A DNA stretch of 64,000 bases from Olsenella sp. oral taxon 807 (lineage in GTDB: Bacteria > Actinomycetota > Coriobacteriia > Coriobacteriales > Atopobiaceae), in contig NZ_CP012069.2 in the NCBI RefSeq assembly GCF_001189515.2, positions 2,170,001 through 2,234,000 on the forward strand, given 5' to 3'. The notes below the pieces were generated by a model. The model was not told where the DNA came from, did no database searches, and was given only the letters and a program-made list of their open reading frames with translations. This document shows, one piece after another, positions 44,142 to 56,036 of the stretch. Within the stretch, counting starts at the first letter, position 1, and every line of letters starts with the position of its first letter. Position numbers and translations under genes: made by a program.

Positions 44142-44638
44142 GAGGCTTCGTGAGTTCATGTAGGTGGATGGTTGCGTCACCGCCCTGGCGGCGTGGACCT
44201 CAGGTCCGAGCGCCCTGGCATCACGGGGGCCATGGGGCCGTCGATGTCGTGGGACCCATGGCCCCGCCCGGTCACGAGAGTGGCCGTGGGGGCAAAGGAG
44301 TGTACACAGATCGGCGAAAACGGCCCCTCGGAGCTGTTTTGGGGCATTTGTGTACACTGTTGCGCCGTTGCGGACAGACGTGGGGACGCAGAAGTGTACA
44401 CAGATCGGCGGAAACGGCCCCTCGGAGCTGTTTTGGGGCATTTGTGTACACTGTTGCGCCGCGAGCTGCGATGCGAGTTGCGTCGGGTGGCACGAGCGCC
44501 CCAACCGCCATGGCGTGCCGGCGGCGCCCCCTCGGTGGCCGCCTCCCTTGGTCGGGAAAACGGGCCCTGCGCGAGCGGTGCCGCCGCTAGCTTGGCGTCT
44601 TCGCCGAGGCAGCAACCCACACTAACCCCCGAAGAGCC
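44142..44638. mobile_element. dispersed non-coding element, copy B (497 bp)
   Basis: Bounded by perfect 8-bp direct repeats CAAATTAC at 44134-44141 and 44639-44646. Ends are imperfect inverted repeats (left GAGGCTTCGTGAGTTCATGT, right CCCCCGAAGAGCC). The interior contains two copies of a 58-bp unit (44300-44357 and 44394-44451) that begins and ends with GTGTACAC and can fold on itself. Copies at 32278 and 51652. Confidence 0.85.
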
Positions 44639-44993
44639 CAAATTACGAGAGGATAAATGTACATAAAGTGCAAGCGGTACCCGCGCCACTTGCTCCCCAA
44701 GGCGCAGATATCGGTGCTTGCGGGGCTCAAGGCTATCGGAAATACTCCTCGACCGCAACTCAGTGTATAACTCATCTGAGTTGCGATTATTCAGGCTCCC
44801 TCGACCGAACCGGCCACAGCCGCTGCTAACTTTCCCTCCTACGGGAAAGCCTTTCGCGGTCCTTGCGGCCGTGCAGTCTACCGGCGAGCCTGCTGAGGGT
44901 AAGGGGAAGCTCCATGGGGGCGGCCCGCACATGGAGGCACATCGGGAGTTTAGGGTGTCAGGCTCGGGGGATTGACGTTGTCGGTGCCTTACG

Positions 44994-45164: not shown

Positions 45165-45175
45165 TCTAACGGACG

Positions 45176-45216
45176 ATGTTGAGACATGCCCTGATATGAT
45201 GGACTAATGTCCCAAC
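45176..45216. repeat. left inverted repeat of AlbA_2 cassette 1
   Basis: ATGTTGAGACATGCCC ... AATGTCCCAAC. Aligned with the reverse complement of 47016-47058 it shares about 30 of 43 positions with small gaps; both ends finish in TGTCCCAAC. It lies just after the stop of the AlbA_2 gene. Confidence 0.6.
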
Positions 45217-45223
45217 GTGTCCA

Positions 45224-46966
45224 TCATTGTCCTATCCTCTCTTGGCCTTTCTCGGTTATCTCATAATGGGCCCCTCCGCCACGGCCGACCGGTGCCAGGT
45301 CGCCGTTTTGAACCAGCTTGATCAGTTGCCGGTATGCCTGCTTGCGGTGCAGGTGCAGCAGGTTCTCCACGTCGCGCGTCGCGATGGACCCGCCTTGTTG
45401 TCTTGCCAGCTTCATGATGAGCTCAGGATAGCGCACTTTATCTATGTCGGATTGGCGGACGAAGTCTGCCCCCTTACCAGAGCGGACGTAGACCTTGCTG
45501 CTGAGTATGTAGGATCGCGCTGGTGAGCTGCCGCGTGCTTCGACGAGCCCGGCCTCGACGAGCGCCTCGACAATTGCCCTCGTGACCGCATCGACCATGT
45601 GGAGCTGGGAGGAGAGGCCGGCTACCGTAAGCCTCCTCTGCCTCTTCAGGGCATCCAGCACGAGCAGGGACCTGAGCGATAGCGCCTCGCCGGTTCTCTC
45701 GCGCTCCTCGTTGAGCATGCGCATGAAAAGCTCATCCGGCGCACTTCGCGCTATAAACACGCTCACGCTCGCAGGCGTCGTGCCCGAGTAGTCCGGCAGC
45801 GGCCTGCCGTAGAAGAGCGATCCCTCGAATATGCGGTCGACGCCACGGCCGGTCTTCTCGGCGAGGCCGATACGCTTGAGAGCGCTCATCAGGCACTCGT
45901 TGCGCCCGTGGGGCTCAACAGTAAGCAGGTTTTCCACCGTAACGCCCTCCACGAAACCGCCCGGGTTCGCTATGGTGAGCCCCTCGTCGTCGATGAGCAC
46001 GCGTACGCGGCCGATGACGGCGTAATCGCGGTGGCCGAAGGCGTTGACCAGGGCCTCCCGGAATGCCCTTTGGTCGAACTCTGGCACCGACTGCCTGAAC
46101 AACCCGTCCTCGAACTCGCGCTCCGGGTTCCACGGATCGAGCATCTCGCGCATCTTCTCGATTGTGTAGAGCAGCGGCTGGTCGAAGTCTTGGTTGACGC
46201 GCACCTCCGTGCCGTCCAGCACCTGGAACGTCGCGGCGGACGTCGGTATCGCGCGCCTCATGACCTCGGGCCTGCCTGCGAGCAGGATACCCGTGACAGT
46301 CGGGGTGACTTTGCCGTCTACCAGTGTGGTCATGCGCAGCGCGCTCAGGACCTCGTCGTCGGAAAGCCCGAGCAGTGCTTGATCGCTGCTGCGGTTCTTG
46401 GCGAGTGCCTCGCGCAGGCGCACGATCTCGTCCGGGCTGAGGTCTTCCACGCTGGTATCGGGGACGGGAAAGGCAGAGTAGTCCAGCTGGCCGAGCGTGG
46501 AGAGCCTGGTTATGATCTCGTAGGGGTAGAGGGGTGCGCTTTCGGGCTCTCCGTCCGACTTCAGTCTCCTACGCATGACCTTCCCGCTGCTCGAGGCGAC
46601 GATCGCCTTCGACTTCGGGATCTCGATGAGGGTTACCTGCGCGCCGCCATCGCAGGCCGTCCCGTCGGGCGCGAGGAAGAGGGTCGACACGCGCGCGCCC
46701 ACGGGAGGCACCGTCTTGTTGGCGATGAGCGCGGCAAGCTGCGTGGTATCCCTGTGATCCTTGTGGACCCCGGTTGGCGTACCATCGTCCTCGACTCCGA
46801 GGTATATGTTGCCGCCGTTGGTGTTGCTGAGAGCGACAACCGTGTCCATGAGCTCGGAGTCGGGAAGCCTGCTCGGCTTGAGCTCGCCGTTTTCGTCCCT
46901 CTTGAACTCGCTTTTGAACTCGACCTCTATGGTCTCCCCGAAGGGTATTTCGCGCTGCGCCGCCAT
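45224..46966 (-). CDS. AlbA_2 / HATPase_c_4 protein, cassette 1
   Basis: 580 residues starting MAAQREIPFGETIEVEFKSE. AlbA_2 domain (VVALSNTNGGNIYLGVEDDG), HATPase-like domain (REALVNAFGHRDYAVIGRVR, LTIANPGGFVEGVTVENLL, GLAEKTGRGVDRIFEG) and two C-terminal winged helices (RRLTVAGLSSQLHMVDAVTR; IATRDVENLLHLHRKQAYRQ). ATG 46966 follows AAAGG; the open frame runs on to 47446 over the operator and cannot be coding there. Function unknown; probably binds the palindromes in its own promoter. Confidence 0.85.
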   Translation of the reverse strand: MAAQREIPFGETIEVEFKSEFKRDENGELKPSRLPDSELMDTVVALSNTNGGNIYLGVEDDGTPTGVHKDHRDTTQLAALIANKTVPPVGARVSTLFLAPDGTACDGGAQVTLIEIPKSKAIVASSSGKVMRRRLKSDGEPESAPLYPYEIITRLSTLGQLDYSAFPVPDTSVEDLSPDEIVRLREALAKNRSSDQALLGLSDDEVLSALRMTTLVDGKVTPTVTGILLAGRPEVMRRAIPTSAATFQVLDGTEVRVNQDFDQPLLYTIEKMREMLDPWNPEREFEDGLFRQSVPEFDQRAFREALVNAFGHRDYAVIGRVRVLIDDEGLTIANPGGFVEGVTVENLLTVEPHGRNECLMSALKRIGLAEKTGRGVDRIFEGSLFYGRPLPDYSGTTPASVSVFIARSAPDELFMRMLNEERERTGEALSLRSLLVLDALKRQRRLTVAGLSSQLHMVDAVTRAIVEALVEAGLVEARGSSPARSYILSSKVYVRSGKGADFVRQSDIDKVRYPELIMKLARQQGGSIATRDVENLLHLHRKQAYRQLIKLVQNGDLAPVGRGGGAHYEITEKGQERIGQ

Positions 46967-46992
46967 TGCCTGCCTTTCGAAGCGACGTTCTC

Positions 46993-47059
46993 CATTGGAC
47001 GCATTATAGTCCAATGTTGGGACACTGTCCCAACAAGAATGGGACAGTGTCCCAACATT
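46993..47059 (-). promoter_or_regulatory. promoter and nested perfect palindromes of AlbA_2 cassette 1
   Basis: A perfect 20-bp inverted repeat (AATGTTGGGACACTGTCCCA at 47013-47032 and its complement at 47040-47059, 7-bp centre) overlaps a second one, CATTGGAC/GTCCAATG (46993-47016). On the minus strand TATAAT (47003-47008) has GGGACA 17 bp upstream inside the large palindrome. The large palindrome also matches 45176-45216 beyond the 3' end of the gene. Confidence 0.85.
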
Positions 47060-47212
47060 GCTCCAATTGAACTGTAACGCTCGTTCCGTAGGGTTGCAGC
47101 CCCGCATCCCCTGACTTCGAAAGCACACAGTAATGCCTGACAGAGGGTTCTGCTTGACTTGACGGTAGGACCCTCTCACGCTCACCCATTGAGTTGGCAT
47201 ACGGAGGTGGGG

Positions 47213-47360: not shown

Positions 47361-47601
47361 GGGCGAGACCACCCCAGGACGAGGTTCACTGAGCGCGACG
47401 TAAAGACCTTCAACGCCCAGTGCCCGCAGCTCGACATGAGGCGCACGGCATCGTTTTACGACCGCTTCCCCGGCTCGATGGCTCCGAGGGCTACATGGTT
47501 GGGACGTCGCTGAAGGACGCCGGCAGAAAGGGCTTGTCCGTCACCCGCATCGAGGATGTCGCGATGGTTGGCACGGTCAGTGCGGCGCTGCAGCAGCACT
47601 A
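47355..47601 (+). pseudogene. C-terminal remnant of an ORF6N/PLD-like protein
   Basis: RFTERDVKTFNAQCPQLDMR, ASFYDRF, then after a frame change EGYMVGTSLKDAGRKGLSVT RIED. It matches the C-terminal phospholipase-D-like part also present at 61566-62170. The N-terminal domain is absent here. Confidence 0.65.
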
Positions 47602-47610
47602 GGATAAAAC

Positions 47611-47650
47611 CATCGTTACTAGGTACATTTACTAGGGAACTGGGGAACTC
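47611..47650. repeat. left inverted repeat of AlbA_2 cassette 2
   Basis: CATCGTTACTAGGTACATTT followed by ACTAGGGAACTGGGGAACTC. It matches the reverse complement of 49231-49270 at 36 of 40 positions. Confidence 0.85.
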
Positions 47651-47687
47651 CCATGCTTCCCCAGTCCCCAGTAGGATAGATCCGCTT

Positions 47688-49187
47688 TCAGCCGAGCCGA
47701 TAGCGCCGCTTGGGACTGTTCTTGGTTCCAATAGGCTCGAGGGTCCCGTCCTCCACAAGCCTCGAGAGGTAACGGCGAACGGTCTTCATGGTCATCCCCA
47801 CCGCTTTCGTCACCTCGGACGAGCTCGCGCTCTCGTGCTCTGCGAAGTAGGAGAGTATGGCTTCCTCGACGTTGGCCCTCGAGTAACTGCGCCCCTCCTC
47901 TTCGGTCATCCTCCGGTGCCGGAAGAGAATGTCGAACTCGTCCAGGGTGCTGCGGACTATGGGCTTGCCCATGAGCGCCTTCTCGAGGGACATTTTTATG
48001 GTGGGGTAGCCCGATCCGCGGTTCTCTACCACGCGGCCGACGCTTCCGTCGTAGTCGACGTACGGGACGTCCTCCAGGATCCGCGCCAGGTACTGGTTTC
48101 GCGAAGCCGTGCCGCCCTTGGTGCCGAGGCTCTCCACCGTGAGGGATCCGAACAGGCCGCCGGGGTTCGAGACCTCCAACCGGTCCGGGTACAGGTCCAC
48201 CATCACGGGCGTGCCGTGGCCATCGGGCGAGTAGTCGCGGTGCATGAGGGCGTTCGCGACGGCCTCGCGCACTGCGGGGAGCGGGTAGTCGGGCACGTCC
48301 TCGCGCAGTGCTCCCTTCACTATCGCGCCGTGCCGCATGTTCCGCGAGACCGCCCTCACGGTCTCGACGACCATGGTGGGAATCGGCCCGTCGGCGTTGG
48401 CTGCGTCCGCGAAACGCCTGCCAGCGCCGTCGACCTCACCCTTACGCGGCGTCGGGTAGGAGGTGAAGACCACATCCAATCTGGGGAAGAACTTCTGCGG
48501 GTACTTCCCCAGGGCGAGCATCCCGGCAAGCGTCGGCCTCGCGACGCCCGCCGCGTCCACCGCCACGACGCGCCGGTTGGCCATGAGCTCCTCGTCCGAG
48601 ACCGCGCCCGAACGGTCAAGCGTCGTGGCGCGCACGTGCGAGAGCCAGCCCTCGAGCAGGACCGGATCGAGGTCGCCGACGGTGGCGTCTGGTATGGTCA
48701 CCGCATCGTTTCTGGCCGAGCGGTGCTGGTTCTCAATGAAGCGGTCTATCTCGTAGAGCGACATCTTATGATCGCCGTCGCCGGTCCTCACATATGAGCC
48801 GTCGCGCTGGCCTCGCTTCTTGACGTAGCAGGGCTTCTCGCGGACCGGCGCCTCTGCCACGTTGCCCACGACCACGGGTCTGCCGTCGAGCATAAGCACG
48901 AGTATGTCCACGGCCTGCGGCGGCTCCACGAGCTCGCGGGCGGCCTGGGCGAGCTTGGCCTGCAGCGTCTTTGTGTCGATGTCGCCGGCGGGCTTGAATC
49001 CGTTCTTCTCGAACACCCCCAGCATGACAGTTCCGCCGTGCGTGTTCGCGAAGGCGGATATGGTGTTTGGCACGCTCTTGGGAAAGCCGCCCGCCGCAGA
49101 CTTGACCTCGTATTCCGCCAGGTCGGTGCCCGCTGCGCGCATGCGGTCGATTGCGCTTGCGAGATCCCTGTCAGTCGTGATGAACAT
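47688..49187 (-). CDS. AlbA_2 / HATPase_c_4 protein, cassette 2
   Basis: 499 residues starting MFITTDRDLASAIDRMRAAG. AlbA_2 domain (LAEYEVKSAAGGFPKSVPNT, AFANTHGGTVMLGVFEKNG), HATPase-like part (REAVANALMHRDYSPDGHG, LEVSNPGGLFGSLTVESLG, VVENRGSGYPTIKMSLEKA) and a C-terminal winged helix (SSSEVTKAVGMTMKTVRRYL). ATG 49187 has AGGAG five bases upstream; a GTG two codons earlier is possible. It is enclosed by 40-bp inverted repeats. About the same architecture as the genes at 39212 and 45224 but with low identity. Confidence 0.85.
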   Translation of the reverse strand: MFITTDRDLASAIDRMRAAGTDLAEYEVKSAAGGFPKSVPNTISAFANTHGGTVMLGVFEKNGFKPAGDIDTKTLQAKLAQAARELVEPPQAVDILVLMLDGRPVVVGNVAEAPVREKPCYVKKRGQRDGSYVRTGDGDHKMSLYEIDRFIENQHRSARNDAVTIPDATVGDLDPVLLEGWLSHVRATTLDRSGAVSDEELMANRRVVAVDAAGVARPTLAGMLALGKYPQKFFPRLDVVFTSYPTPRKGEVDGAGRRFADAANADGPIPTMVVETVRAVSRNMRHGAIVKGALREDVPDYPLPAVREAVANALMHRDYSPDGHGTPVMVDLYPDRLEVSNPGGLFGSLTVESLGTKGGTASRNQYLARILEDVPYVDYDGSVGRVVENRGSGYPTIKMSLEKALMGKPIVRSTLDEFDILFRHRRMTEEEGRSYSRANVEEAILSYFAEHESASSSEVTKAVGMTMKTVRRYLSRLVEDGTLEPIGTKNSPKRRYRLG

Positions 49188-49207
49188 GGGCACTCCTGGA
49201 ATGTCGG

Positions 49208-49270
49208 ACTAGGGAACTATGGAAACATAAGAGTTCCCTAGTTCCCTAGTAAATATATCTAGTAGCGATG
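49208..49270. promoter_or_regulatory. right inverted repeat and operator of AlbA_2 cassette 2
   Basis: ACTAGGGAACT at 49208-49218 faces two overlapping copies of its complement AGTTCCCTAGT at 49232-49242 and 49240-49250; the same 11-mer stands at 47631-47641 on the other side of the gene. The outer 40 bp (49231-49270) are the partner of 47611-47650. Confidence 0.85.
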
Positions 49271-49307
49271 ATTCTACCTTAGTGTCATAGATGCCCAGAT
49301 CCGCAAC

Positions 49308-49655
49308 ATGATCCACACCGTGCATGATCAGCAGGTCATGCTCGACAGCGACCTGGCAGAGCTGTGCGGCGTGCTGACAGGAAACCTCAACAAGGCCGCG
49401 TCTCGAAACGCCGAGCGCTTCTCGGAGGACTTCCGCTTCAGGGTGTCGAAAGAAGAGCACGAGTCTTTGATGCTCCAAACTGGAATATCAAACGATGGCG
49501 GACGAGGTGGCAGGAGAAAGCCTCCCTACGTCCACACCGAGCAGGGCGCATCCATGCTCTCGGCCGTGCTCAGGAGCGAGGTCGCCGTCAGGGCGAGCGT
49601 GCAGATCATACGCGCCTTCGTCGAGATGCGCCACCTCATAGCTGTGCCCTCGTGA
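49308..49655 (+). pseudogene. ORF6N-domain protein, N-terminal part
   Basis: 115 residues: IHTVHDQQVMLDSDLAELCG, NKAASRNAERFSEDFRFRVS, RRKPPYVHTEQGASMLSAVL and IIRAFVEMRHLIAVPS. This is the phage-type KilA-N/ORF6N domain. It stops at the point where the copy at 61566 reads VEMRRYLASNAQMFERI, so the C-terminal half has been cut off, exactly at the repeat beginning 49653. Confidence 0.75.
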
Positions 49656-49757
49656 AACTTACGGAAACTTAAAGCCCGAATCGTACAATCGCATGACCTG
49701 CGCTTTCGTGTCCCTGTGGCGCTCTGGGGCCTCGGAAATGAAACTTACGGAAACTTA
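49653..49757. repeat. direct repeats at the end of the third AlbA_2 gene
   Basis: TGAAACTTACGGAAACTTA occurs at 49653-49671 and 49739-49757; each copy contains two GAAACTTA units. The first marks the break in the ORF6N gene, the second overlaps the 3' end of the AlbA_2 remnant. Confidence 0.8.
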
Positions 49758-49759
49758 GG

Positions 49760-50462
49760 TTACGCCCAGAGGGGAACGTAGCGCATGTACCTCGGCGCGG
49801 TATCGGGGTCGACCGGCTGTATCAGCCCGCGCTCCAACGTATCCCGAATCACACGGGACGCCTTCACCTTGGCGTCGGCAGAAAGCCCGAACAGCTCTCG
49901 CACGTCGGCATTGGTGAGTGCCTCGGCGATGACGCTCGCGAGGCACGCCTGCATGTAGCAGATCCTGACCCTGTCCTCCTTGCTCGTCAGGTCGAAGGGG
50001 ACCTTCGAGAATATCGTCGCCCTCGTGAACCTGCCCTGCTGCTGCCCCACGCGCGAGGCAGGGAGGCCGCTGGAGCTCGTCGCCGTCACGATCTTGTCGT
50101 AGCCACTGCCGCGCTCCTCGCAGATGCTGCACTTGCGCATAACCCGCCATGGCCTCGTTGCGCGGCTGGGGCACTGTGTCGATGATGCAGGCGACCTCAA
50201 CGAACGGGGCGCCTGCGTTCGAGAACTCGATGCGCCCGTCGAACACCTCCACCATTGGGCTCGCCCCGCACTGGTCGAGCGCCTGGCGGGCCATCATGTT
50301 CGCCGTGAGCTCGCTTACCGCGACCTCGGGGAAGCTGACCGCCTTACGGCGGATGGCGCCGTCGAGCACCTCCTCCTGTGGGATGATTGCCATGGCGAAC
50401 CGCACGACCTCCTCGTGTGATATGGCGTACCCCTTGGCGAAGGTCTGGCTTCTGGGAATCAT
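49760..50462 (-). pseudogene. AlbA_2/HATPase gene 3, lacking its N-terminus and frameshifted
   Basis: Begins in the middle of the family at IPQEEVLDGAIRRKAVSFPE, passes AVSELTANMMARQALDQCGA and IEFSNAGAPFVEV, changes frame near 50140 and ends ICEERGSGYDKIVTATSSSG ... ALTNADVRELFGLSADAKVK to RYMRYVPLWA. The AlbA_2 domain is missing. It abuts the AbiEi-like gene. Confidence 0.75.
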
Positions 50463-52725: not shown

Positions 52726-53718
52726 CTACCAATCCATGCTCTTGAGCCAGGACAGGAGATCCTGCCTCTCGCTTTCGTCATAAGCCGCGTCGGGCGCGAT
52801 GCGCGCGCCACGCTCCTCGATGGCCTTGCGGCGCATCTCCGGATTTGCCCTGGCGTATATCTCGGTGGTGGTTACCGAGACGTGTCCAAGCAGGTCGCGT
52901 ATGTACACGAGGTTGACGCCGGCTTCCAGCAGGTGCATCGCCCGCGAGTGCCTGAACATGTGCGGGGTTACCTTGGGCGGCACGTTGGCGCCGTCGCTCC
53001 GCGCCGCCTCCGAGTATTTCTCCACCACGTACCTGAGTCCCGATCGGCTCAGCTTGCCCTGCCGACCCGCGATGAGCGGCGCGTCGCCCGAAGCCCCCGA
53101 TTCCCTCACGTGGCGATCGATTATGGCCGACACCTCACGGCCGATGGGGACGACGCGCGACTTGCCTCCCTTGCCGCGCAGCACGACTGCGGAGAAGCCT
53201 GCGGAAAGGTCGCACGCCCGGATGTCTATGAGCTCCTGGGCGCGCGCGGCCGACTCGTAGAGCAGCGAAAGCGCGGCGAGGTGCGCGAGGCCCTCCCGAG
53301 TCGAGGGGTCCGGTGCGGCGAGCACGGCGCGCATGCCCTCGACGCCGATGTAGCCGACAAGCGGCGGGGGGCAGCGCTTCCTCCCCACGGCCAGCGCCGA
53401 CGAGCACGCCTCCATCCACACCGGATCCCGCGCCTGGATGTATCGGAAGAGGGAGTGTACCGCCGCGAGCCGATGGTTGCGCGTGGACACGGCGACGCCG
53501 CGCGAGCGCTCGAGGTGGTCGAGGAACTCCCCGAGCGCGTCCCCACCGAGGTCCTCCACTCCCAGGGCCTCGACAACCTTCCCGGATCGCCCCGACGCGA
53601 AGGAGACGAACTGGACGATGGCGTCACGGTACGACGCGACCGTGTTGGGAGACGCGCCCTTGACGTCGGGCAGGTGGCAGGCGAAGAAGCGGGCCACGTG
53701 CCCCTCGAAGCCGTCCAT
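52726..53718 (-). CDS. tyrosine recombinase, third of the trio
   Basis: 330 residues starting MDGFEGHVARFFACHLPDVK. Core-binding SAM-like domain (SPNTVASYRDAIVQFVSFAS) then the catalytic domain with Arg in LLYESAARAQELIDIRACDL, HMFRHSRAMHLLEAGVN (H-x-x-R) and LLGHVSVTTTEIYARAN with the tyrosine nucleophile. Overlaps the end of the second gene region by a few bases (TGAGATGG). Confidence 0.9.
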   Translation of the reverse strand: MDGFEGHVARFFACHLPDVKGASPNTVASYRDAIVQFVSFASGRSGKVVEALGVEDLGGDALGEFLDHLERSRGVAVSTRNHRLAAVHSLFRYIQARDPVWMEACSSALAVGRKRCPPPLVGYIGVEGMRAVLAAPDPSTREGLAHLAALSLLYESAARAQELIDIRACDLSAGFSAVVLRGKGGKSRVVPIGREVSAIIDRHVRESGASGDAPLIAGRQGKLSRSGLRYVVEKYSEAARSDGANVPPKVTPHMFRHSRAMHLLEAGVNLVYIRDLLGHVSVTTTEIYARANPEMRRKAIEERGARIAPDAAYDESERQDLLSWLKSMDW

Positions 53719-53719
53719 C

Positions 53720-54642
53720 TCACACCCCTCCCAGGCCGGGGGCCACGTGCGGCGCGTACAGCTCCATGCGCTCGAGGACGCCCGCGCGTCCCTCGTCCGT
53801 GAGGCGGAGGTACCATTCCGTCTCCTTGGGCCCGCAGTGGCCCATGTACCGGGACAGGACCGGCAGGGCCGCGCGCACGTCGACCCCCGCGGCGTCCATC
53901 CGCGCGAGCGCCCCGACCGCGAACGTGTGCCGCCAGTCATGCAGGCGCGGATAGGCCCCGTCCGCCCTGCGCACGCCTGCGGAATCCAGGAGGGTCCTGT
54001 GCCATGTGCCGACGAGCTGGTTCTGCAGCGGGCCGCCCTCCCGCAGAAGACGAGCCCGCCCCCGCCGCCGACGCGGAGTCCCCGGTAGCGTTCGAGCACC
54101 TCCGCCATCGATGCCGACATGACGACGAGCCGGGGCTTCCCTCCCTTGCCGAGAACGCTGAGCCGCCTCCCGTCGACGTCGTCCCACCGCAGGCCGGCCG
54201 CCTCAGAGAACCTGAGGCCGGTCGAGTAGAGCAGGCGCACGAACGCCGGCATGATGAGGCTCGGCTCGTAGGGGCTGCGCCTCTGGGCGATGCCGGCATC
54301 GGCCGCCGAGAACACGGCGGAGGCCTCCTCGTCCGTGTAGATATGGGGCACGAAGTCGCTCTCGAGGCGGACGTCCGCCCTGAAGGAGCCGGCCTCGATG
54401 TCCCTCCTCGCGCAGAACCCCGCGAACACGTTCCACAGCCCGACCCTGTTGGCGCGCGTCCGGCACGCCTCGCCGTCCCTGGGGGCGGCCCACTCCGCGA
54501 AGGCTGCCTCGTCCATGTCCCGCTCGCCCAGGAACGAGCACAGGCGCTCGCAGGCGCACACGTGGCTTCGCCCGTACGCGTAGCCGCACGCCCTCCTCTC
54601 GGCGATGAAGGCGCGCAGGGCGTCCGCCCAACGGCCCCTCAT
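53720..54642 (-). pseudogene. tyrosine recombinase, second of the trio, frameshifted
   Basis: Starts MRGRWADALRAFIAERRACG; Arg in LLYSTGLRFSEAAGLRWDDV. In the G/C run at about 54035-54060 the frame changes, after which PLQNQLVGTWHRTLLDSAGV, LHDWRHTFAVGALARM and YMGHCGPKETEWYLRLT follow with His, Arg and Tyr intact. About 307 residues if corrected. May be a real mutation, a sequencing error or, less likely, programmed frameshifting. Confidence 0.8.
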
Positions 54643-54646
54643 GCGC

Positions 54647-55873
54647 TCACCACCCGCGGACATGGGGCACCTCCGGCGGGATGGCGGCAAGGCCCTCCTC
54701 GTCGACCGACAGGTACGCCTCGGTGGCCGACGTCGAGGCGTGGCCGAGCACCGAGGATATCGTCGGCAGCGGGACACCGGCGGCGAGCAGGCCAGACGCG
54801 GCGGAATGGCGCAGGGCATGGCCGCCGTGCCTGCGCCCGGAGCGGTCGACGCCGGCCCGGTCGATGGCGCGCGTCACCATCCGATGGAACGAGGAGCCGC
54901 TCTTGTAGGGCGTGTGCGGTGCGTGCGTCGTCAGGATGACGTGCGGGTCGTTCGACCTCGGGCGGGCGTTCCCCGCGTAATCGAGGAGCGGGAACCTCAC
55001 CCCGTCGACGATGGGCAGTGATAGCCGAAGGCCCGTCTTCGCCTGGACGATCGCGATGCGGCCCGAGCACCAGTCGACGTCGGCGAACCTCAGTGCGGCG
55101 ACGTCCCCGCATCGCATGCCGTAGTGCGCGAACAGGCTCAGGACGAGCATGTCGCGCTTGCCGGCGGGCGTCGCCACGTCGACGGAGCCGAGGATCAGCG
55201 CGACCTCCTCGTCGGTGTACCGCGACGGTAGCGGCGAATAGGCCCTGGCCCTTACGACGGGAAAGGCGTCCCGGCCGCCGAACGCGATGAGCCCCTCCTC
55301 GCCCATCCAGTCCAGCGCCTTACGCAGCGAGTAGCCGTCTCGTTTGTTCTCGTGGGGCGATCTCCCCGGCTCTCCCATGTATGCGTGCACGTCGGCCACG
55401 GTCAGGTCCCCGATCTTGCGTACCCCGCGCGAGTCGAGGAACAGCAGGAAGCGGCGAACCCGCCAGAGCCTCAGCGCCTTGGTGCTCCCCGCGAGCCCGC
55501 TAGACCCCACCAGGGCCGCGTATCCCGCGTAGGCGCCCGCGAACTGCTCGGGCGGGGGCTCGGGGCCGGGGTGCCGCTGATGGCTCTTGAGGTAGGTCCC
55601 CGTCTCCTCGAGCTCGAGCAACGTGAGCAGCGGCTTGCGGATCACGCACTGCGCCGGAGTCACGTCGCGCTCGTCGATCGGGAGGTCGAACTGGGCGAGG
55701 AGGAAGCGCGCGGCCTCCTCCCTGTTGACCGAGCGTACCCCTTCTCGCTCGCACCACTTGGCGAAATTGCCGAGCACCCAGCGCGCGTTCCTCACCATCT
55801 CGTCGCTGTAACCGTCTGACCTCAACCGATCGACGAGGGCGTCGGCAGCGCCCCCTAACATCTTGATGTCCAT
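54647..55873 (-). CDS. tyrosine recombinase, first of the trio
   Basis: 408 residues starting MDIKMLGGAADALVDRLRSD with GGAG before the ATG. Catalytic residues: Arg in LFAHYGMRCGDVAALRF, HALRHSAASGLLAAGV, and Tyr in LGHASTSATEAYLSVD. Full length for RitA. Ends 4 bp before the second recombinase gene. Confidence 0.9.
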   Translation of the reverse strand: MDIKMLGGAADALVDRLRSDGYSDEMVRNARWVLGNFAKWCEREGVRSVNREEAARFLLAQFDLPIDERDVTPAQCVIRKPLLTLLELEETGTYLKSHQRHPGPEPPPEQFAGAYAGYAALVGSSGLAGSTKALRLWRVRRFLLFLDSRGVRKIGDLTVADVHAYMGEPGRSPHENKRDGYSLRKALDWMGEEGLIAFGGRDAFPVVRARAYSPLPSRYTDEEVALILGSVDVATPAGKRDMLVLSLFAHYGMRCGDVAALRFADVDWCSGRIAIVQAKTGLRLSLPIVDGVRFPLLDYAGNARPRSNDPHVILTTHAPHTPYKSGSSFHRMVTRAIDRAGVDRSGRRHGGHALRHSAASGLLAAGVPLPTISSVLGHASTSATEAYLSVDEEGLAAIPPEVPHVRGW

Positions 55874-56036
55874 GCCCTTGCTCCTTTCCACGAGTCGGAC
55901 ACCGTGGGAAGGAGCGTAACTGATTATGTGCGGAATACTAGGTTGTGCACGCCTCTGAACCGGTTAGTCGCGACAGACTGCTCATAACCGAGAGCCGCCG
56001 ATAACACAACTTATGTGCATTTGCACATAAGTTGTG

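Follow-up and report, generated by a model that had tools for sequence, protein, structure and literature searches.

The focal gene of this locus, an AlbA_2 gene of Olsenella sp. oral taxon 807, is flanked on both sides by related palindromic arrays, which raises the question of whether these arrays act as operators of the enclosed gene, mark the ends of a unit that is inherited as a whole, or resemble each other for some more trivial reason. The reading considered here to be somewhat probable is that the locus encodes a regulator which represses itself, possibly cuts RNA and has its own operators at both ends, with the array–gene–array block being inherited as a unit. The relevant features of the window, i.e. 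the entire stretch of 64,000 nucleotides that was analysed, are as follows:

45171–47071, no strand assigned: unit of homology with the closest relatives of the focal locus
45175–45216, no strand assigned: downstream array (R-down), starting 7 bp past the stop when read along the gene
45224–46966, minus strand: focal gene, encoding a 580-aa protein (Pfam; AlphaFold2 model)
47003–47008, minus strand: predicted −10 hexamer TATAAT, 17 nt from the −35 hexamer
47012–47060, no strand assigned: upstream array (R-up), in which two palindromic boxes in tandem make up a perfect inverted repeat of 21 bp
47026–47031, minus strand: predicted −35 hexamer GGGACA, inside R-up
47597–47669, no strand assigned: downstream array of the neighbouring gene, of the ACTAGGGAA type, inverted with respect to its upstream array (81% over 73 nt)
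47688–49193, minus strand: neighbouring AlbA_2/HATPase gene, a parallel case with another word
49212–49284, no strand assigned: upstream array of the neighbouring gene

R-up is composed of the tandem palindromes TTGGGACA-N-TGTCCCAA, with the boxes lying 22 bp apart, and its arms (47012–47032 and 47040–47060), each of which is itself near-palindromic, are 21 nt long, 100% complementary and spaced by 7 nt. The array covers the predicted −35 hexamer of the focal gene and is in phase with TATAAT, the two hexamers together matching the consensus at 10 of 12 positions with a 17-nt spacer. The sequence-only reading had placed a 20-bp inverted repeat at 47013–47059 together with TATAAT, a downstream copy after the stop matching at about 30 of 43 positions, and a different word at the flanks of the gene at 47688; all of this was recovered, with the arms extended to 21 nt, with R-down being identical to R-up at 33 of 43 positions in a gapped alignment (direct orientation), and with the two 73-nt arrays of the neighbour being 81% complementary, or 62 of 77 with gaps.

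The focal word is found at ≤1 mismatch at two places in its own genome, both of them the R-up boxes, and at ≤3 mismatches at 7 places, as compared to 6 for a reversed-pattern control. A regulon for the focal protein was thus rejected as a candidate, with the own-genome search having given no sites beyond R-up at ≤1 mismatch. Because R-up covers the −35 box, the focal protein, when bound there, would repress its own promoter, and it most likely binds the palindromic word as a dimer via its C-terminal winged helix. The predicted self-repression via R-up is well supported by the position of the array, its uniqueness and the covariation within the focal family described below. A comparable arrangement is known for RptR, the repressor of a restriction-modification island, which represses its own promoter by binding to repeated palindromes overlapping that promoter (PMC12255303); the likeness lies in the palindromic repeats over the own promoter, with repression by the focal protein being a prediction, and the difference lies in RptR being a small protein for which the passages describing it mention neither downstream copies nor units (PMC12255303).

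The focal protein is composed of an SLFN_AlbA_2 domain (residues 11–136; 58 bits, cut-off 25.3), an HATPase_c_4 domain (residues 320–403; 52.8 bits, cut-off 26) and two subsequent winged-helix regions, which are visible in the AlphaFold2 model, the Pfam HTH matches falling below the cut-off. The model was built from 19 aligned relatives (mean pLDDT 77.6, pTM 0.54), and its best structural match is 3lmm (E 7.7e-31), with Schlafen and MarR-type structures matching far more weakly. With respect to both domains and fold the protein is thus a member of the SLFN_AlbA_2/HATPase_c_4 group (PF04326, PF13749), and 3lmm, which is DIP2311 of Corynebacterium diphtheriae, an uncharacterised structural-genomics protein, is its solved relative; unlike what is seen at the focal locus, the records of this group that were examined describe neither operator arrays nor unit behaviour. 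A search of open-licence PMC text found no description of the function of AlbA_2/HATPase_c_4 genes, nor of arrays around them.

The catalytic carboxylate triad E205/E210/D248 of Schlafen 13 (SLFN13), as given in a passage of PMC5862951, aligns with E11/E16/D60 of the focal protein, and these residues are invariant in all 18 rows of the 19-row alignment that cover the region. Conservation of the triad points to a nuclease, probably an RNase, as the repressed product, the activity of which would be gated by the ATPase domain. The likeness to the N-terminal RNase domain of Schlafen 13 consists of the AlbA_2 similarity and the aligned carboxylates; the Schlafen domain differs in being a eukaryotic pseudo-dimer that lacks both the GHKL ATPase and the winged helices.

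The proposal that the motif covaries with the C-terminal winged helix holds for the focal family, whereas no such link was seen for that of the neighbour. Among the 19 focal-family proteins counted (L035, L038 with an internal stop, duplicates, L027 and L033 having been left out), all 13 whose second winged helix carries AYR in its recognition helix have GGACA(0-2)TGTCC at ≤1 mismatch, whereas this word is found upstream of none of the 6 with other helices (Fisher p = 3.7e-5, not corrected for kinship). The word lies upstream in 11 of the 13 and only downstream in two, of which L052 has its upstream side cut by a contig end; the other, L046, has the word downstream only and none upstream, which counts against the main reading. 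Downstream matches of L032 were not counted for this gene because they fall at the promoter of L040, the gene that follows. Two members sharing a different helix, L034 and L036 (both AYYEIRKL), have TCTGAATTCAGA in common. When the rest of the protein was held constant in a partial Mantel test, 5 of 1000 permutations attained the observed value in the focal family and 406 of 1000 did so in the neighbour's family, so that a helix–word link is not supported in the latter.

The downstream array is less evident from the focal locus itself. R-down contains the half-sites TGTCCCAAC (45208–45216) and GTTGAGACAT (45178–45187), and its alignment score with R-up is reached by 3 of 1000 dinucleotide shuffles and by 9 of 214 control genes, because of which the pair is weak when taken alone. 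R-down is nevertheless convincing in the light of the arrays of relatives: its alignments with the upstream arrays of L025 and L026 reach scores of 46 and 41, and that of R-up with the downstream array of L042 a score of 49. In two genomes of the focal genus, G039 and G040, the tail of the gene (last codons) is found together with the same downstream array at 81–82% identity over 120 bp, and across genera of the focal clade the downstream array keeps a layout of its own, also in the two gene-less remnants.

A focal homologue at E ≤ 1e-60 is present in 16 of 140 family-level genomes, own included; named genomes, including Olsenella, Tractidigestivibacter, Atopobium, Enorma and Slackia records, contributed 11 loci, several of which duplicate sequences already in that set. 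From the 29 focal-family loci 21 were used, six having been left out as duplicates by eye (L043, L044, L045, L047, L049, L050), L033 as frame-broken and L027 as 5′-truncated; the 43 matches of the neighbour's family yielded 30 loci, of which 27 were used (L089, L108 and L109 being partial). Most focal homologues have GGACA..TGTCC boxes at the promoter, more distant members having other words, and in the clade around the focal gene these boxes recur just past the stop; the neighbour's homologues show the same layout, yet with other words. Upstream inverted repeats above the 99% level of controls are found in 9/21 focal-family and 6/27 neighbour-family loci.

When the comparison was limited to the 130 nt preceding the start codon and the 100 nt following the stop codon, sharing at a threshold score of ≥40 was detected in 11 of the 48 homologues of both families, as compared to 5 of 214 control genes taken from 20 stretches of the own genome (Fisher p = 6e-6, with the homologues treated as independent); among the highest-scoring controls, the seven that were inspected by eye proved to be tandem paralogues, repeats or a CRISPR array that had been called as a gene. 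The enrichment over control genes by which the sequence-only reading proposed to judge its claim is thus present, and its broader statement, that each protein has its own word at both ends, stands for this subset and does not extend to AlbA_2 genes as a rule. Among the 23 AlbA_2 loci of the own 3.2-Mb genome, two of which (L006 and L014) were counted in other sets, only 1 of the 21 others reaches 40 (L015), and in an ungapped test of all 23 only two genes, L015 and the neighbour L014, showed strong sharing; in a phylum-wide sample 2 of 18 scored loci reach it, out of 21 foreign loci (L236, having no start, L237 and L246 were left out), and one of these two, L228, repeats something other than its promoter array, namely direct repeats of ~97 bp which flank its HATPase_c_4 gene outside that array. 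A separate observation concerns L010, another AlbA_2 gene of the own genome, which has nearly four tandem copies of the 10-bp word CCTTGTCGTA just past its stop; a general rule of iterons downstream of stops was rejected, there being no enrichment beyond L010 among the other own-genome AlbA_2 genes.

That the similarity of the palindromes is due to chance would fit the modest focal pair, which 9 of 214 controls equal, and is contradicted by the arrays in relatives, making this explanation extremely improbable. The layout, which the sequence-only reading had also held to be no accident, is repeated in pairs that are near-identical over 55–76 bp (L111, 74/76; L096, 66/67; L034, 56/57; L088, 55/56), and the cross-gene pairs scoring ≥40 (24 of 2256) all fall within word families, in addition to the difference between homologues and controls.

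An alternative in which R-down acts as RNA, i.e. as a 3′ hairpin protecting or ending the transcript, draws on its folding (z = −4.35), with a stem that starts at the stop codon; the R-up region, folded as RNA, gives z = −8.0. A T-run terminator was searched for at R-down and not found, the same word serves as the promoter operator, and direct copies such as that at L111 repeat the whole asymmetric array, all of which speaks against such a role, and it is regarded as very unlikely.

A weightier alternative, although still a rather unlikely one, is that of a plain autorepressor, in which only R-up matters, R-down is a by-product of a past tandem duplication and deletion, and the gain and loss of the block reflect ordinary horizontal transfer and deletion between repeats. 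Tandem paralogues do exist (L032 with L040, on contig 58 of G075), and the downstream copy is absent from most homologues: 37 of the 48 score below 40 and have no recognisable downstream array, which counts against the main reading, and the downstream array is therefore not needed for the function of the family. What argues against a by-product is that downstream arrays belonging to unrelated word families all the same lie near the stop (directly at it in L111; L096 at +10, L083 at +16, L034 at +19, L086 at +24; those of L088 at +76 and L092 at +107 are farther away), and that in the focal clade the array retains its layout across genera and in the gene-less remnants. Under the reading of a self-repressing regulator bounded by its operators, R-down would most likely allow dimers bound at the two ends to form a bridge and thereby tighten repression, which is our favoured guess, and it would mark the end of the inherited unit.

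That the block is such a unit was not among the proposals of the sequence-only reading. The homology of the focal locus to L042, L025, L026 and L045 begins 91–105 nt before the start codon and stops 41–53 nt past the stop codon, these edges coinciding with the outer edges of the arrays; this could also reflect constrained arrays within drifting intergenic DNA. Sites in relatives are more informative. The L034 block in G107 is placed between two convergent genes and is present in 1 of 31 congeneric genomes, with the flanks in the other 30 being no more than about 305 bp from each other on a single contig, leaving no room for the gene; no array was seen in the 13 of these 30 junctions that were read. 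At the site of L111, the two flanks in G075 enclose a single bare array in place of the gene, and in G069 and G068 the left flank is followed by one array. At the L086 site, G104 has both flanks around a single array, the left part of which corresponds to the upstream and the right part to the downstream copy, with the halves joined at a word common to both; such a chimera is the pattern expected after deletion between arrays. A gain and loss of the block as a unit is thereby supported at three sites in relatives, the focal site not being among them, and for its loss by recombination between arrays, which would remove the unit and leave one bare array, one site shows the pattern and a second agrees with it, as judged from genome comparison. 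Ordinary recombination between the arrays would suffice to explain such losses, and it has to be noted that the G104 junction, by resembling recombination between short repeated words, also suits the plain autorepressor. Bare L034-type arrays in G111 and G096, with no such gene nearby, count against the main reading.

The same sites bear on a third possibility, regarded as improbable, in which the locus is a non-autonomous mobile cassette with the arrays as its ends, moved in trans by the recombinase of another element. The L034 block between convergent genes at a site empty in 30/30 relatives would suit this, as would the fact that element ends are inverted repeats and the occurrence of bare arrays elsewhere. 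It is opposed by the words, which are not the same for different genes and track, within the focal family, the protein's own helix; moreover, no target-site duplication was seen by eye at L034, although the intergenic sequences of the empty sites have diverged too far for the edge to be located. Quite improbable, in our view, is a variant in which the focal protein itself moves the unit, the putative Schlafen-fold nuclease with its GHKL ATPase, bound to the arrays at both ends by the winged helix, cutting or bridging for excision or insertion, with bare arrays being empty or target sites. Searches for empty sites found nothing informative for L026 and L095, each in its own genus, and for the focal region in its own genus only ORF6N pieces and the gene-tail remnant; tRNA genes as insertion targets were absent from the window and seven other loci scanned, with two found beside L094 only. 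A prophage origin was rejected as well, a pattern scan of viral contigs having found no relative, and 21 phage and 110 plasmid records having given only matches of <60% identity.

Several known systems share parts of this arrangement. RAYT transposases are encoded by genes flanked by REP/REPIN palindromes cognate to their product, and the focal gene is likewise flanked by palindromes presumed to be cognate to its product; RAYT/REPIN systems differ in having an HUH transposase domain and genome-dispersed palindromes, both absent for the focal gene, the Pfam scan of the focal protein having listed neither an HUH (Y1) nor any other transposase domain. Solo LTRs are bare terminal repeats that remain after loss, which is similar to the flank–repeat–flank arrangement at orthologous sites of relatives (L111/G075 and L086/G104, the focal site not being among them), and mobile insertion cassettes have a passenger gene between terminal repeats; both differ from the present case, in which the repeats presumably serve the enclosed gene as operators and vary from gene to gene.

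If each of the numerous AlbA_2/HATPase_c_4 proteins reads its own operator, the promoter arrays would be direct binding sites to assay, and the helix–word pairs of the focal family would be material for a recognition code. If the arrays bound a unit of gain and loss, gene regulation and transfer would use one DNA signal, and bare arrays would be markers of lost genes. Should the protein move its own unit, this would amount to a mobile gene in which one DNA element is both operator and end, and its product would be a mobility enzyme of a new type.

A number of further observations were made in the window and at related loci. The stretch 49653–50462 contains a broken HATPase_c_4 gene (49755–50462), at the stop of which TGAAACTTACGGAAACTTA is found (49739–49757) and again at 49653–49671, making it a third array-bearing unit in a row with the focal gene and its neighbour. 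ORF6N pieces at 47370–47600 and 49308–49655 flank the neighbouring unit in swapped order, and correspond to one intact ORF6N gene in G039 and G040. A dispersed repeat of ~500 bp at 44142–44640 has dozens more copies in the own genome, and successive long minus-strand frames at 52726–55891 resemble tyrosine recombinases by eye, which we take to be perhaps a recombinase-in-trio element. L088 lacks approximately its first 100 codons, with the upstream array abutting the truncated end, which looks like the result of a deletion extending from the array into the gene, and the AlbA_2 gene L007 appears, by eye, to have a type I restriction specificity gene on one side and a gene for a restriction subunit on the other.
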